From the NCBI GenBank assembly GCA_947177115.1, contig CAMWTG010000002.1, positions 1 through 32,148 of the forward strand: DNA of 32,148 nucleotides, given 5' to 3'. The position numbers were made by a program, and so were the translations under genes. Source of the stretch: an uncultured Clostridia bacterium (GTDB taxonomy: Bacteria; Bacillota; Clostridia; Oscillospirales; Oscillospiraceae). How positions within the stretch are numbered: the stretch's first letter is position 1; every line of letters begins with the position of its first letter. This document shows positions 537 to 26,234 of this stretch, in pieces. A model generated the notes under the pieces. The model was not told where the DNA came from, made no database searches, and saw nothing but the letters and a program-made list of their open reading frames with translations.

Positions 537-2495
537 ATGACAGATATGAAGGAAATGAACGAACTGAACGAAACCGCCACCCAGGTGGACCACGCCTACG
601 GCGGCAGCGAGATCCAGGTCCTGGAGGGCCTGGAGGCCGTCCGCAAGCGCCCCGGCATGTACATCGGCTCCACCAGCGAGTCCGGACTGCACCACCTGGT
701 CTATGAGATCGTTGACAACTCCATCGACGAAGCCCTTGCCGGCTTCTGCGATGAGATCACTGTTACCATTAATGAAGGCGATACCATCACCGTTACCGAC
801 AACGGCCGCGGCATCCCCGTGGACATCCAGCCCCAGACCGGCCTGCCCGCCCTGGAGGTGGTCTTCACCGTCCTCCATGCCGGCGGAAAGTTCGGCGGCG
901 GTGGCTATAAGGTGTCCGGCGGCCTCCACGGCGTGGGTGCCAGCGTGGTCAATGCTCTGAGCGAATGGCTGGAGGTCCAGGTCCATAAGGACGGCCAGAT
1001 CTATGAGATGAAATTCTCCCGGGGCGATATTACCCAGTCCATGAAGATCGTTGGTCCCACTGATAAGACCGGCACCATCGTCACCTTCAAGCCGGACCCT
1101 GAAATGTTCGATGTCACCACCTACAGCTATGACATTATCCATACCCGTATGCAGCAGCAGGCGTTTCTGAACGCCGGCCTGAAGATCAGCACCTTCGACA
1201 AGCGTGAGGGCAGGGAAGAGGCCGACTCCATGTGCTACGAGGGCGGCATCCGGGAGTACGTGTCCTGGCTCAATCAGAACAAGACCCTTATCCATGAAGA
1301 CGTGATCTATATGCGCGGCATGAAGGATGACTCCTCCGTGGAAGTGGCCCTCCAATATAACGATAATTATAACGAGACCATCGTTTCCTTCGCCAACGAT
1401 GTCCGCACGCCCGAGGGTGGTATGCATGAGGAGGGCTTCCGCCGCGCCCTGACCACCGTCCTGAACAACTACGGCAAAAAGAACAATATCATCAAGGGCG
1501 ATGACAAGGTATCCGGCGAGGACTGCCGGGAGGGCCTGACCTGCGTTATTTCCGTCAAGCTCACCGAAGCCCAGTTTGAGGGCCAGACCAAGGCCAAGCT
1601 GGGCAACGCCTCCATCCGCACCCTGACATCGGCGGTGGTCAGCGAAAAGCTGGAGGAATATCTGGAGGAAAACCCGAAGGTAGCCCGTCTGATTTTAGAT
1701 AAAGCCATGATGGCCAACCGCGCGCGGGAGGCGGCCAAAAAGGCCAGGGAATCCATCCGGCGCAAGACCGCCCTGGGCGGAGCGGCCATGCCCGACAAGC
1801 TGCGGGACTGCAACGAAAACAATCCAGAGCTGACAGAGATCTATATCGTTGAGGGCGACAGCGCCGGCGGCTCGGCCACCCAGGGACGGGACAGCCGTTT
1901 CCAGGCCATTCTCCCCCTGTGGGGCAAGATGCTGAACGTGGAAAAGGCCCGGGTGGACAAGGTATACGGCAACGACAAGCTCCAGCCGGTCATTACCGCT
2001 CTCGGCGCGGGCATTGGCGAGGACTTCGATGTCAACAAGCTTCGCTACCATAAAGTCATCATCATGGCAGATGCGGACGTGGACGGCAGCCATATCCGTA
2101 CGCTGCTCCTCACCTTCTTTTTCCGTTTCATGCGCCCCCTGATCGAGGAGGGCTATGTCTACTCCGCCGTCCCGCCTCTGTTCAAGCTGACCAAGGGAAA
2201 GACGACCCGTCTGGCTTTCTCCGAGCCGGAGCGGGACGCCATTTCCGCTGAACTTCGCGGCGACAACCCCAACGCCAAGATCGACATCAGCCGCTTCAAG
2301 GGCCTGGGCGAGATGAACCCCCACGAACTCTGGGAGACCACCATGGACCCGGAGCGCCGCACTCTCCGCCGCATCGAGCTGGACGATGCCGTCCAAGCGG
2401 ACGCCATTTTCACCCTCCTTATGGGCGAGAAGGTGGAGCCCCGGAAGGAGTTCATCGAAAAAGAGGCCAAGACTGCGGTCAATCTCGACTATTAA
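537..2495 (+). CDS. gyrB: DNA gyrase subunit B
   Basis: [75 protein letters not shown] ggagg upstream. Confidence 0.98.
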
Positions 2496-22211: not shown

Positions 22212-22814
22212 TCAAACTGTTCCGCCTGCCAAAAAGCTGCGGACTGCTTGCAGCAGCGCCTCATGATCGATCTGGGCGGGGTCGGATGCATCCACCACGA
22301 TCCGGGGCTCGCCTGCTGAAAAGCGGTCCATGCCCCGGGCAGCGATCCCATGGGTAAAATCTTCAAATGAGACCGGTGCCAGAGGCGCGGTACGCGTCTC
22401 TTCCGGGTACCGGTCGTTAACCACATGGCCGCGGTGACGGTCCGGACTTTGATCCCGCGCCAAAAAACGGCGGTATATGATCTCGTAATCTCCGGTGAGG
22501 GAGATCGTGAGAGCCTTGCAGCCGTACCGCTCCAGAATTTCCATCAGACCCTGCCGGGAGGCATCTTCAAAGTTGTTTTCCATAATGAATGCCTGACCGC
22601 AGGCCATCAGCTGTTCCGCCGCGTAATACATGATCTCCATGCTGGCGGCGCCTAGTCGGACCTTTTCGGCGCGGGACTGGAATCCGACCGTGTCATAGAG
22701 CAGCTCCTTGATCCGGTCTTTGGAAAGAACGGGCAGGGTCAGCTGCTCTCCGAGAAAATGTGCCAGGGTGCTTTTTCCGGCGGCAGGAATGCCGGCAATT
22801 AAAATACAGTACAT
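22212..22814 (-). CDS. P-loop kinase/AAA family ATPase (zeta-toxin / small-molecule kinase-like)
   Basis: MYCILIAGIPAAGKSTLAHFL Walker A; LSKDRIKELLYD; LARDQSPDRHRGHV lid-like segment. Confidence 0.82.
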   Translation of the reverse strand: MYCILIAGIPAAGKSTLAHFLGEQLTLPVLSKDRIKELLYDTVGFQSRAEKVRLGAASMEIMYYAAEQLMACGQAFIMENNFEDASRQGLMEILERYGCKALTISLTGDYEIIYRRFLARDQSPDRHRGHVVNDRYPEETRTAPLAPVSFEDFTHGIAARGMDRFSAGEPRIVVDASDPAQIDHEALLQAVRSFLAGGTV

Positions 22815-22900: not shown

Positions 22901-23671
22901 TTATCCCGGTTTTTGTGCAATCAGCAGATACCGGTGGATGGATCCCTCTATAACGCCGTTCCGCTCCAGCACGGATTGGGCCCGGTAAAGACCCTCCAGG
23001 CAGCTCTCCACGGAAAATCCTGGAAATTCCCATGCAATAATCCTGGAGAACCAGACCAGCGCGCCGACATCCCGGAAACGGATGGGGCGGAAAGCCTCCT
23101 GACCCTCCAGAATGGTCAGACCGCAGCCGGCCAGATCGGCCTGCGCGATCGCCAGATACTGCCGGGGAAAGGGAAGGGGCGGCTCCTTCGGGAGAAGAAG
23201 CCTGACCAGCTCCCGGTCGTTTTCCGCGCCGACCTGCTCCGTGAGGAAAATTCCGCCGGGCTTCAGCAGGCGGGCGATCTCCCGGGGGTCATAATCCCCA
23301 TGCCGGTTGAGGATCAGGCCGAAGGCATGGTCTGGGAAAGGCATGGGGCCGCCGCCTTTCGCCTCCCGGAAATCGATTCCAAGCGGCGGCAGCGTCCTGC
23401 GGCAGAGAGCCGCATTGGGCGGGTAGCCCTCGGTGGCGCTGGTGAGAGAATATGGGTGGCCCAGGGAGAGGAGAAATTCCCCGCCGCCGGTGTCTATGTC
23501 CAAAATGCGGATTTCCGGATGAAGGTACCGTTGGACCAGCCGGCGATAGCTCCAGGGAAGGTCCTGCTCTTCCTCGTAACGGCCATGGATATGGGAAAAG
23601 TCCCAGCCGTGAATGTGGGCGGCTTGCTCTTCCGCCAGCCATTGGGTCAAGAGTTCGTTTTGATCTGCCAT
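22901..23671 (-). CDS. Class I SAM-dependent methyltransferase
   Basis: RILDIDTGGGEFLLSLGHPYSLTSATEGYPPN (motif I region), FPDHAFGLILNRHGDYDPREIARLLKPGGIFLTEQVG. Substrate unknown; no Erm/KsgA NPPY-type motif seen. Confidence 0.88.
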   Translation of the reverse strand: MADQNELLTQWLAEEQAAHIHGWDFSHIHGRYEEEQDLPWSYRRLVQRYLHPEIRILDIDTGGGEFLLSLGHPYSLTSATEGYPPNAALCRRTLPPLGIDFREAKGGGPMPFPDHAFGLILNRHGDYDPREIARLLKPGGIFLTEQVGAENDRELVRLLLPKEPPLPFPRQYLAIAQADLAGCGLTILEGQEAFRPIRFRDVGALVWFSRIIAWEFPGFSVESCLEGLYRAQSVLERNGVIEGSIHRYLLIAQKPG

Positions 23672-23783
23672 AACTGCTCCTTTCTCGTATCAAAGTGATG
23701 GTACGGTCCGGCGCAGTCAACTGACAGCATAGCGTTCACTCGGTGCGGCTGCTGTCAGAATTCTGACCGCGCCGAGCAGTTAT
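23670..23783 (-). promoter_or_regulatory. Putative translation attenuator of the methyltransferase gene
   Basis: ATAACTGCTC (RNA, 23783-23774, within the uORF) is perfectly complementary to GAGCAGTTAT (23679-23670, RBS/start). Nested pairings 23763-23774 with 23709-23720 (12 bp, 2 G-U) and 23750-23758 with 23721-23729 (9 bp); competing hairpin 23739-23776. Confidence 0.65.
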
Positions 23784-23802
23784 CTCGAACAAAGGGCAGC
23801 AT
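23755..23802 (-). CDS. Putative leader peptide MLPFVRDNCSARSEF*
   Basis: ATG at 23802, stop TGA at 23757-23755; SD AAGGAG (plus 23812-23817) 9 nt upstream of the ATG. Confidence 0.65.
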   Translation of the reverse strand: MLPFVRDNCSARSEF

Positions 23803-23835
23803 GGCCTTTCACTCCTTCGACAGTGAATCGGGTAA

Positions 23836-23864
23836 ATCATAGCACAAACTGCGGTTATTGGCAA
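23836..23864 (-). promoter_or_regulatory. Promoter of the leader/methyltransferase transcript
   Basis: Minus strand TTGCCA-17 nt-TATGAT. Confidence 0.7.
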
Positions 23865-24283: not shown

Positions 24284-25294
24284 GTGAAAGCTACCATTGA
24301 GGAAATCGCCCGCATTGCCGGTGTCTCAAAAACAACCGTGTCACGGGTATTGAATAATAAAACGGAAGGCGTGGGGGCTAAGACGCGTCAGCGAATAGAA
24401 CTATTATTGGAAGAAATGTACTACTGCGGTCATTCCGCGTCCCATCCGCTGCAGGCGCCCCGAAGCAAAACGGTGGCATTGATCCTGCCGGATATCACCA
24501 ATCCATTCTTTGCGGAGCTGGCCAAGGCGGCGGAGAATTATCTCAGCAACAGCGGATATATGCTGTTTCTTGGCAATACGGATTTTTCATCGGAAAAAGA
24601 GGCCCAGTACCTGAAAAGCTTCATATCCAAACGGGTGGATGGCATCATGCTGATTTCTACGGCCCAGGTTTGCACTACCAGCCACCGGATGCCCGCTAAG
24701 TATGGTACGCCGTGTGTGCTGATGGACCGGAAACTGAGCAGCATGCCCTATACCGCAGGCGTCTTTACAGACAACGAATACGCGGTGTTCCGTTCCTGCG
24801 AGCTGCTTATCCGCAACGGTTCTACCTCGATCGCGTTTATCTCCGGGCCGGCTAACGTCTCCACTTCTCTGGAGAGGGTGGAAGGGTATAAGGCATCCAT
24901 TCAGCATTATGGGCTGGAGTTTGACGAACGATTGATCAAATTCGGCAATTATACGCTGGATGGCGGCTATAACGCCATTATGGAACTGGCCAGCGAGGGG
25001 ATCCGCTGCACCGGCATTATTGCCGCCAATGATACGATGGCTATCGGCGCGATGAAGGCGCTGTCCGAATTATCCTATCGCATTCCCCAGGATGTGGAAG
25101 TGATTGGGTTTGACAATATCGGCTACTCCCGTATGTGTACGCCCCCCTTGACCACCATTCAGCAGCCGATCATTGAGATGGGCCGTACCGCTTCACAGCT
25201 CCTTCTGGATGCGATTGCTGGGAAAAAAATAAAGGACAGGCGTATCTATCTCCAGCCAAAGCTGCTGATACGGGAATCCACCAAGAAAGTGTAG
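24284..25294 (+). CDS. LacI family transcriptional regulator
   Basis: ATIEEIARIAGVSKTTVSRVLNNK HTH; periplasmic-binding-like effector domain; GTG start with ggaggag SD. Confidence 0.96.
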   Translation: MKATIEEIARIAGVSKTTVSRVLNNKTEGVGAKTRQRIELLLEEMYYCGHSASHPLQAPRSKTVALILPDITNPFFAELAKAAENYLSNSGYMLFLGNTDFSSEKEAQYLKSFISKRVDGIMLISTAQVCTTSHRMPAKYGTPCVLMDRKLSSMPYTAGVFTDNEYAVFRSCELLIRNGSTSIAFISGPANVSTSLERVEGYKASIQHYGLEFDERLIKFGNYTLDGGYNAIMELASEGIRCTGIIAANDTMAIGAMKALSELSYRIPQDVEVIGFDNIGYSRMCTPPLTTIQQPIIEMGRTASQLLLDAIAGKKIKDRRIYLQPKLLIRESTKKV

Positions 25295-25304
25295 GAGGAC
25301 TTTT

Positions 25305-26234
25305 ATGAAAAAAATACTCGTAATAGGGAGTACCAACACAGACTTTGTACTCAAAGTCGGGGCGATACCACAGGTGGGTGAGACCGTAATGAGCAGATCC
25401 TTTCAGCAGCTGCCGGGCGGGAAGGGCGCTAATCAGGCGTACGCCTGCGGTATGCTGGGCGGACGGGTTACCTTCCTCTCCGCCATTGGCGAGGACGGCC
25501 TGGGCGGTGTAGTGATGGAAAATATGCGCCGCGCCCATGTGGAAACACGGTACATCCGCACAACGAATGAGGACAGCACGGGAATGGCCGTTATCTGCGT
25601 TGATGAGACCGGCAACAACTCGATTGTTGTGGTTCCCGGCGCAAATCTTTACTGTGACTGCGGATATCTGATGGACCACAGGGATGCCATCGATATGTGT
25701 GACATCCTCCTGGTTCAGCTGGAGGTACCGGTAGAAGGAATTTTCTCCGCTGTTGAATACGCGCATAAAAGGGGAAAAACGGTCATTCTGAATCCCGCGC
25801 CCTGCCCGGATTCTATTCCGGACGATGTTTTGCAAAACGTTGATTACATAACTCCCAACGAGACCGAGCTTCAGAAGCTGACCGGCTGCCGGATGGACTG
25901 CCCGGAGGGGGTCCGGGAGGGCGCGGAGACTCTTTTGCGCCGGGGCGCCGGACAAGTCATAGTCACGCTGGGCAGCAAAGGCGCGATGTTTTGCAATGAC
26001 AGCAAAACGGAGCATTTTCCGGCCTGGCAGGTCCCTGTTGCGGATACAACGGCGGCTGGCGATACGTTCAATGGGGCGATTGCCGTAGCGCTTGCCGAGG
26101 GGAAGGGCATTGAAGAGGCCATCCGCTTTGCCAACGCGGCGTCCAGTCTTGCCGTATCCAGAAAAGGTGCGCAAACCTCAGTTCCATCCCGGGCTGAAGT
26201 AGATAAATTTATGAATGACAGAGGTGGCATATGA
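25305..26234 (+). CDS. rbsK: Ribokinase (PfkB family)
   Basis: GSTNTDFVLKVGAIPQVGETV, LPGGKGANQAYACGMLGG, DTTAAGDTFNGAIAVAL. Confidence 0.93.
   Translation: MKKILVIGSTNTDFVLKVGAIPQVGETVMSRSFQQLPGGKGANQAYACGMLGGRVTFLSAIGEDGLGGVVMENMRRAHVETRYIRTTNEDSTGMAVICVDETGNNSIVVVPGANLYCDCGYLMDHRDAIDMCDILLVQLEVPVEGIFSAVEYAHKRGKTVILNPAPCPDSIPDDVLQNVDYITPNETELQKLTGCRMDCPEGVREGAETLLRRGAGQVIVTLGSKGAMFCNDSKTEHFPAWQVPVADTTAAGDTFNGAIAVALAEGKGIEEAIRFANAASSLAVSRKGAQTSVPSRAEVDKFMNDRGGI

Follow-up and report, generated by a model that had tools for sequence, protein, structure and literature searches.

The window analysed here, a stretch of 32,148 nucleotides from an uncultured Clostridia bacterium, carries upstream of a methyltransferase gene a structured leader which we read, with a probability of about 70%, as a translational attenuator controlled by a short upstream open reading frame (uORF) and opened by a ribosome pausing at a CGA codon. 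In the family of leaders to which it belongs the frame of the uORF is conserved, two mutually exclusive folds covary, a segment named 3b has co-evolved with the ribosome binding site (RBS), the Shine-Dalgarno sequence (SD) is computed to open at a single ribosome position, and the codon standing there is in most leaders CGA. A translation attenuator of the erm or cat type upstream of a non-Erm methyltransferase had been proposed in the first-pass annotation, and a comparison of homologues for conservation of the uORF and of the complementarity left that idea standing, as 99 of the 102 leaders have the uORF in frame and both folds covary.

Organization of the Leader and Its Locus

All elements of the leader lie on the minus strand. 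Its sigma-70-type promoter (23836–23864) is composed of a -35 box TTGCCA (23864–23859), a spacer of 17 nt and an extended -10 box TATGAT (23841–23836), and scores 10 of 12 consensus matches with the extended TG present. There follow the SD of the uORF, AAGGAG (23812–23817), and the uORF itself (23755–23802), which has 15 codons, encodes MLPFVRDNCSARSEF, starts with the ATG at 23802 and stops with the TGA ending at 23755. Its sixth codon, corresponding to codon -4 of the family numbering, is the CGA for arginine (23785–23787) which we propose as the stall codon. Downstream of it, segment 1a (AUAACUGCUC, 23774–23783) pairs perfectly over 10 nt with GAGCAGUUAU (23679–23670) in the RBS of the methyltransferase, which is made up of AAGGAG and segment 4 (23671–23682). 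Segment 1b (23764–23776) has two possible partners, since it can pair through 23767–23776 with segment 2b (23739–23748) to form the competing hairpin, or through 23764–23774 with segment 3b (23709–23719) in a stem of 11 bp, or 12 counting a terminal G-U. Segments 2a (23750–23758) and 3a (23721–23729) form a further stem of 9 bp, and between 3b and the RBS a small hairpin CGUA...UACG (23686–23705) is predicted which is also visible by eye in many of the methyltransferase leaders. The promoter, uORF, 10-nt complement, 12- and 9-bp stems and competing hairpin named in the first-pass annotation are thus all present in the sequence. The RNA from 23829 to 23650 folds to -68.4 kcal/mol, far better than its shuffles (-50.8 ± 4.0 kcal/mol; z = -4.4; none of 200 as good). 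In the minimum-energy fold the RBS is paired with the first uORF codons, or alternatively with codons 7–10. No terminator-like site was found at the leader of the window.

The gene behind the leader (22901–23671) encodes a class I SAM-dependent methyltransferase of 256 residues belonging to an unnamed family. Its Pfam match is weak (Methyltransf_11, 22.3 bits); it matches no family in NCBIfam, Erm included, and no sequence in the PDB, and it was absent from phages. An AlphaFold2 model with a pLDDT of 95.9 has the class I methyltransferase fold. Its best structural neighbours are generic class I small-molecule methyltransferases and RlmA(I), with TM-scores of about 0.5–0.67, a range of proteins too general to point to a substrate. 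Directly 3' of the methyltransferase lies a small AAA/Zeta-toxin-like kinase (Pfam AAA_33 and AAA_18; 22212–22814, minus strand), possibly its operon partner. Divergent from this unit, a LacI/RbsR-type regulator (24284–25294, plus strand) looks like the head of a plus-strand sugar-utilisation cluster with open reading frames at 25305, 26231, 26578, 27681, 29789, and 31301.

Distribution of the Leader and Downstream Genes

A homologue search with the methyltransferase produced 80 loci from many Clostridia, together with further copies in close relatives, and at about half of the homologue loci the same leader could be recognised. Genomes sampled from the phylum, the class, the order and three families were scanned with a covariance model of the leader and with a second model of broader scope. 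Together these searches located the leader in many Bacillota families, with about 80 covariance-model matches and about 45 leaders found via the methyltransferase, counts which are inflated by related sequences. In the three families the models matched 31 of 397, 36 of 215 and 6 of 32 genomes, respectively, and in the broader samples a few per cent of genomes or less; with a sample of about 1,700 genomes searched through fast filters, these frequencies are lower bounds. No match to the methyltransferase-type leader was found on plasmids, the single 37-bp plasmid match to the ABC-type leader was dismissed as meaningless, and an exact 23-base pattern found no leader in viral contigs.

The link of the leader to the methyltransferase, as initially described, holds for the window and is only part of the picture, as the leader is found upstream of no fewer than four unrelated gene families: the methyltransferase, ABC exporters, MFS transporters, and radical-SAM proteins. 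The methyltransferase makes up the majority of these genes, ABC exporters, about 500 residues long or longer, follow in about 20 cases, and the radical-SAM proteins are of two kinds. The second, unrelated radical-SAM type (CPNRCKHCWLGAAPNGKM) is found at a locus, L102, whose uORF has no CGA at the usual place. The wording of the uORF also varies with gene class, most methyltransferase leaders reading TCG GTG CAG and the ABC and most radical-SAM leaders TCA GTA CAG, with the RNA partners altered to match. Some genomes (G671, G1448, and G1039) have two copies of the leader; in G1448 two ABC exporters of differing sequence type (L185 and L192) each have a leader copy of their own, which suggests a small regulon.

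Two weak matches, L168 (about 1692–1837, minus strand) and L169 (about 1632–1770, minus strand), were excluded from the family as they have a different structured uORF leader, with peptides ending in AAAPCRV and AEAPCKG. The genes behind them are MFS transporters resembling Mef macrolide efflux pumps (L168 matches the Mef(A) profile with 112.7 bits), and their leader looks like another attenuator family.

At the gathering threshold no Rfam family was detected in the window, nor did any Rfam match, at E up to 5 or 1, overlap a leader in eight relatives. The portions consulted of two large structured-RNA surveys do not mention such an element. The first-pass annotation had not recognised the leader peptide, and the peptide strings of the uORF were likewise found in no paper by a literature search with subscription papers and supplements outside its reach; neither the macrolide nor the phenicol arrest context is conserved in them.

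Two Mutually Exclusive Folds

Of 102 leaders, 99 have the uORF start codon and SD in a single frame, and the other two frames give 4 and 0. The consensus of the peptide is M-x-x-x-R-[GDI]-N-Y-[SPL]-V-Q-[LF], with the stop after [LF], and the length of the uORF ranges from about 8 to 30 codons across the family.

Both folds of the leader are supported by compensatory changes. For the long-range fold (1a:RBS, 1b:3b, and 2a:3a), 44 methyltransferase leaders show 90.5% of cells paired, two-sided changes in 16 of 27 pairs and a covariation score reached by no shuffle, and their 1b:2b hairpin is paired in 96.2% of cells with 22 two-sided cells. Across 94 leaders of all gene classes, 1b:3b plus 2a:3a is paired in 96.9% of cells, with two-sided changes in 15 of 18 pairs, and 1b:2b in 97.8% with 48 two-sided cells; in neither case was the score reached by any of 500 shuffles. 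The shuffles keep relatedness in play, and the sliding controls, which retain it, collapse for every covarying helix tested; the changes span several families. Since both folds covary, the bases of 1b must hold two partners at once, as is expected of a switch.

Strong covarying structure across gene families, matching no known Rfam class, would also be expected if the leader were an undescribed riboswitch, or bound a protein, and the uORF were incidental. The confinement of start codon and SD to one frame argues against this, as does the distance from the start to the CGA, which remains a whole number of codons despite the variable length of the uORF; moreover, the reading frame runs through conserved structure, and the CGA itself lies outside the covarying pairs. 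We regard such a leader as very improbable.

The Helix That Hides the Shine-Dalgarno Sequence

Several partners for the RBS are available in the window, and the one conserved among homologues is 23719–23710. The duplex between 3b and the RBS has an energy of -10.3 kcal/mol with the leader's own RBS, against -8.2 with swapped and about -5 with shuffled RBS, and the own RBS is the better partner in 84 of 102 leaders. For the duplex of 1a with the RBS this holds in just 54 of 102, indicating no co-evolution, and radical-SAM leaders do not have this pairing. In the conserved arrangement the SD is therefore hidden by 3b:RBS (23719–23710 with 23680–23671) and not chiefly by uORF:RBS. The uORF:RBS pair first put forward for this role is perfect over 10 nt in the window without being part of the conserved core; as both pairings are present there, the RBS of the window is doubly guarded.

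Position of the Ribosome and Opening of the Leader

The cost of opening the SD was computed with a ribosome placed at successive points along the uORF, for 102 leaders and 56 positions of its front edge, using nearest-neighbour estimates of the RNA alone that ignore kinetics and proteins. The median cost was about 3.5 kcal/mol before, 1.5–2.3 at edges 0 to +3 (counted in nucleotides of the S codon of the family), and 6.8 after; 70 of the 102 cost minima fall within these 4 of the 56 positions, and the minimum lies there in all four gene classes. The MFS leaders share the minimum, yet remain fairly closed at their optimum (4.5 kcal/mol), and in one MFS fold that was drawn a partial RBS helix persists at the open position. 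Opening is likewise modest in the leader of the window, which has its own valley of 2.9–3.6 kcal/mol over edges -4 to +3. With no ribosome, or with one early on the uORF, the SD is computed to be closed. In the structure predicted for the open position the stems 1b:3b and 2a:3a are stacked, with the RBS outside them, whereas beyond this position or at the stop codon 3b takes the RBS and the SD is closed. Scrambling 1b raised the opening cost to 5.2 kcal/mol, with an increase in 94 of 102 leaders, while scrambling a loop produced no rise (1.8). A ribosome on the uORF, which the first-pass annotation expected to free the RBS, is thus predicted to do so at one narrow position; a stall just anywhere is insufficient, as further along the SD closes again.

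These results bear on the classical erm-type attenuator, in which drug-dependent arrest of the peptide anywhere over codons 7–10 would mask the anti-SD and free the RBS. Such a scheme fits a conserved uORF and the perfect 10-nt match of the window, and several methyltransferase leaders use the uORF:RBS match or its neighbours in their ribosome-free folds. Against it, with a ribosome over codons 7–10 or further on, 3b remains available to close the RBS, and the uORF:RBS pairing that it requires shows no co-evolution (54 of 102) and is lacking in the radical-SAM class. Among the peptides, the +x(+) macrolide motif is found in only 13 of 99 and a penultimate Ala, Ser, or Thr, following the phenicol/oxazolidinone rule, in 3–4 of 99. 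We consider this scheme quite unlikely. The re-closing of the SD once the ribosome has passed 1b means that the stall must lie upstream of 1b, which is where this leader departs from covering of the anti-SD in the manner of erm.

In the attenuator that we favour, with no ribosome on the uORF the SD would be hidden, in the window by RBS:uORF pairing stacked on 1b:3b and in other members by 1b:2b plus 3b:RBS. A ribosome paused with its leading edge at the boundary of 1a and 1b would mask 1a and break 1b:2b while sparing 1b; the freed 1b could then pair with 3b in a stem stacked on 2a:3a, which would expose the SD, at that pause position only. Once the ribosome had moved past 1b or was terminating, 3b would pair with the RBS and keep the SD shut. 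The open position would place the CGA in the decoding centre, in the A site with a standard footprint.

A Conserved CGA Codon at the Predicted Open Position

If the footprint is assumed to extend 16 nt from the first base of the P site, a ribosome at the open position holds codon -5 in its P site and codon -4 in its A site; a shorter footprint would move the CGA into the P site. Of 101 leaders, 87 have CGA as codon -4, and arginine, where it occurs at this position, is always encoded by CGA (87 of 87). By comparison, CGA accounts for 8 of 85 arginine codons elsewhere in the same uORFs and for 6–9% of those in the downstream genes. The loci found with the second model mostly keep it. Ten of the 14 leaders without CGA retain A as the third base of the codon, perhaps a sign of some constraint at the nucleotide level. 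None of the pairings tested explains the conservation of the CGA, which is in no covarying pair; a local CGAG:CUCG hairpin was rejected as the cause, as it does not covary and changes of CUCG to CCCG are uncompensated.

CGA is decoded by the inosine:adenine wobble of tRNA-Arg(ICG). In one complete genome, G671, which has two leaders, the arginine tRNA anticodons are ACG, CCG, TCT, and CCT, and the lack of TCG means that CGA depends on tRNA-Arg(ACG) and this wobble. In Salmonella CGA is poorly read by its tRNA (PMC4046918). The pause at CGA would be the signal, with the wobble as a built-in slow step, and would probably last longer in the presence of a translation inhibitor or when charged tRNA-Arg(ICG) is lost; the methyltransferase, exporters, and radical-SAM enzymes would then serve to counter that translation stress. 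A more specific and tentative version, to which we give clearly less than even odds, is that the leader reports the decoding of CGA by tRNA-Arg(ICG), a single modular element of Bacillota switching on unrelated detoxification and export genes against a natural translation toxin.

A different signal would be at work if uncharged or cleaved tRNA-Arg(ICG), and not a ribosome-binding drug, caused the stall at CGA, a possibility that in its RNA mechanics is a sub-case of the CGA-gated attenuator and a rival as to the signal only. The exclusive use of CGA for arginine at codon -4, which a peptide motif would not need, and the sole CGA reader of G671, tRNA-Arg(ACG), speak for such an arginine or tRNA sensor. 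The genes downstream, however, are not arginine genes but exporters, a methyltransferase and radical-SAM enzymes, and amino-acid attenuators usually have runs of codons in place of a single conserved arginine codon; on balance we think it rather unlikely.

Comparison With Known Attenuators

The erm leaders (ErmCL, ErmBL, and ErmDL) have a short uORF and exclusive helices that sequester the SD until a ribosome stalls, with a SAM methyltransferase downstream. The leader described here resembles them in its short uORF with an SD of its own (99 of 102) and in exclusive helices that govern access to the SD. It differs in that its methyltransferase is not an Erm and other gene families also occur downstream; in that the peptide has no conserved RLR-type arrest motif, K/R-x-R at the predicted stall being present in 13 of 99, and one rare codon stands out in its place; and in that the 3' half of the uORF (1b) is the anti-sequestor, which requires the stall to lie upstream of 1b. 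In contrast to cat-type phenicol/oxazolidinone leaders, only 4 or 3 of 99 uORFs have Ala, Ser, or Thr penultimate to the stalled P site. Amino-acid transcription attenuators differ by their codon runs and terminators, the leader having a single conserved arginine codon and no terminator-like site.

Clostridial and bacillar attenuators in which stalling exposes the SD are known from the uORFs of ARE-ABCF genes, such as C. difficile cplR, with the uORF MR[I/M], and B. subtilis vmlR (PMC10201436; PMC9226507). Their uORFs have about 3–4 codons and are combined with an intrinsic terminator, in contrast to the longer uORFs seen here and the leader, at which no terminator was found, and no ABC-F gene was found downstream of the leader in any locus examined. 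Occlusion of the SD under uORF control also occurs at E. coli toiL-topAI, where several antibiotic classes stall the ribosome at different codons (PMC12121999). That system is a toxin-antitoxin locus of E. coli, while the present element serves several gene families. We know of no CGA rule for toiL-topAI. In Bacillales, uORFC-6-1 (the hflX leader) is a structured uORF candidate upstream of a translation-stress gene in Firmicutes (PMC8632094), and is distinguished from our leader by the gene that follows it and by a peptide with an Arg-Leu-Arg motif. The leader works like the erm, cplR/vmlR, and toiL attenuators but, as far as testing could show, is without the traits that set each of them apart. 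Its architecture and proposed codon-gated stall are new relative to the erm and ARE attenuators and, with no Rfam family or describing paper found, apparently undescribed.

Implications

As a class of ribosome-sensing RNA switch, the leader is widespread among Clostridia and their relatives and has apparently gone undescribed. Its presence marks the genes downstream as a likely regulon of translation-stress or drug response, and the pause of the ribosome at CGA provides a rule that is directly testable. With the covariance model more such genes can be found, some of which may be unrecognised factors of intrinsic resistance.
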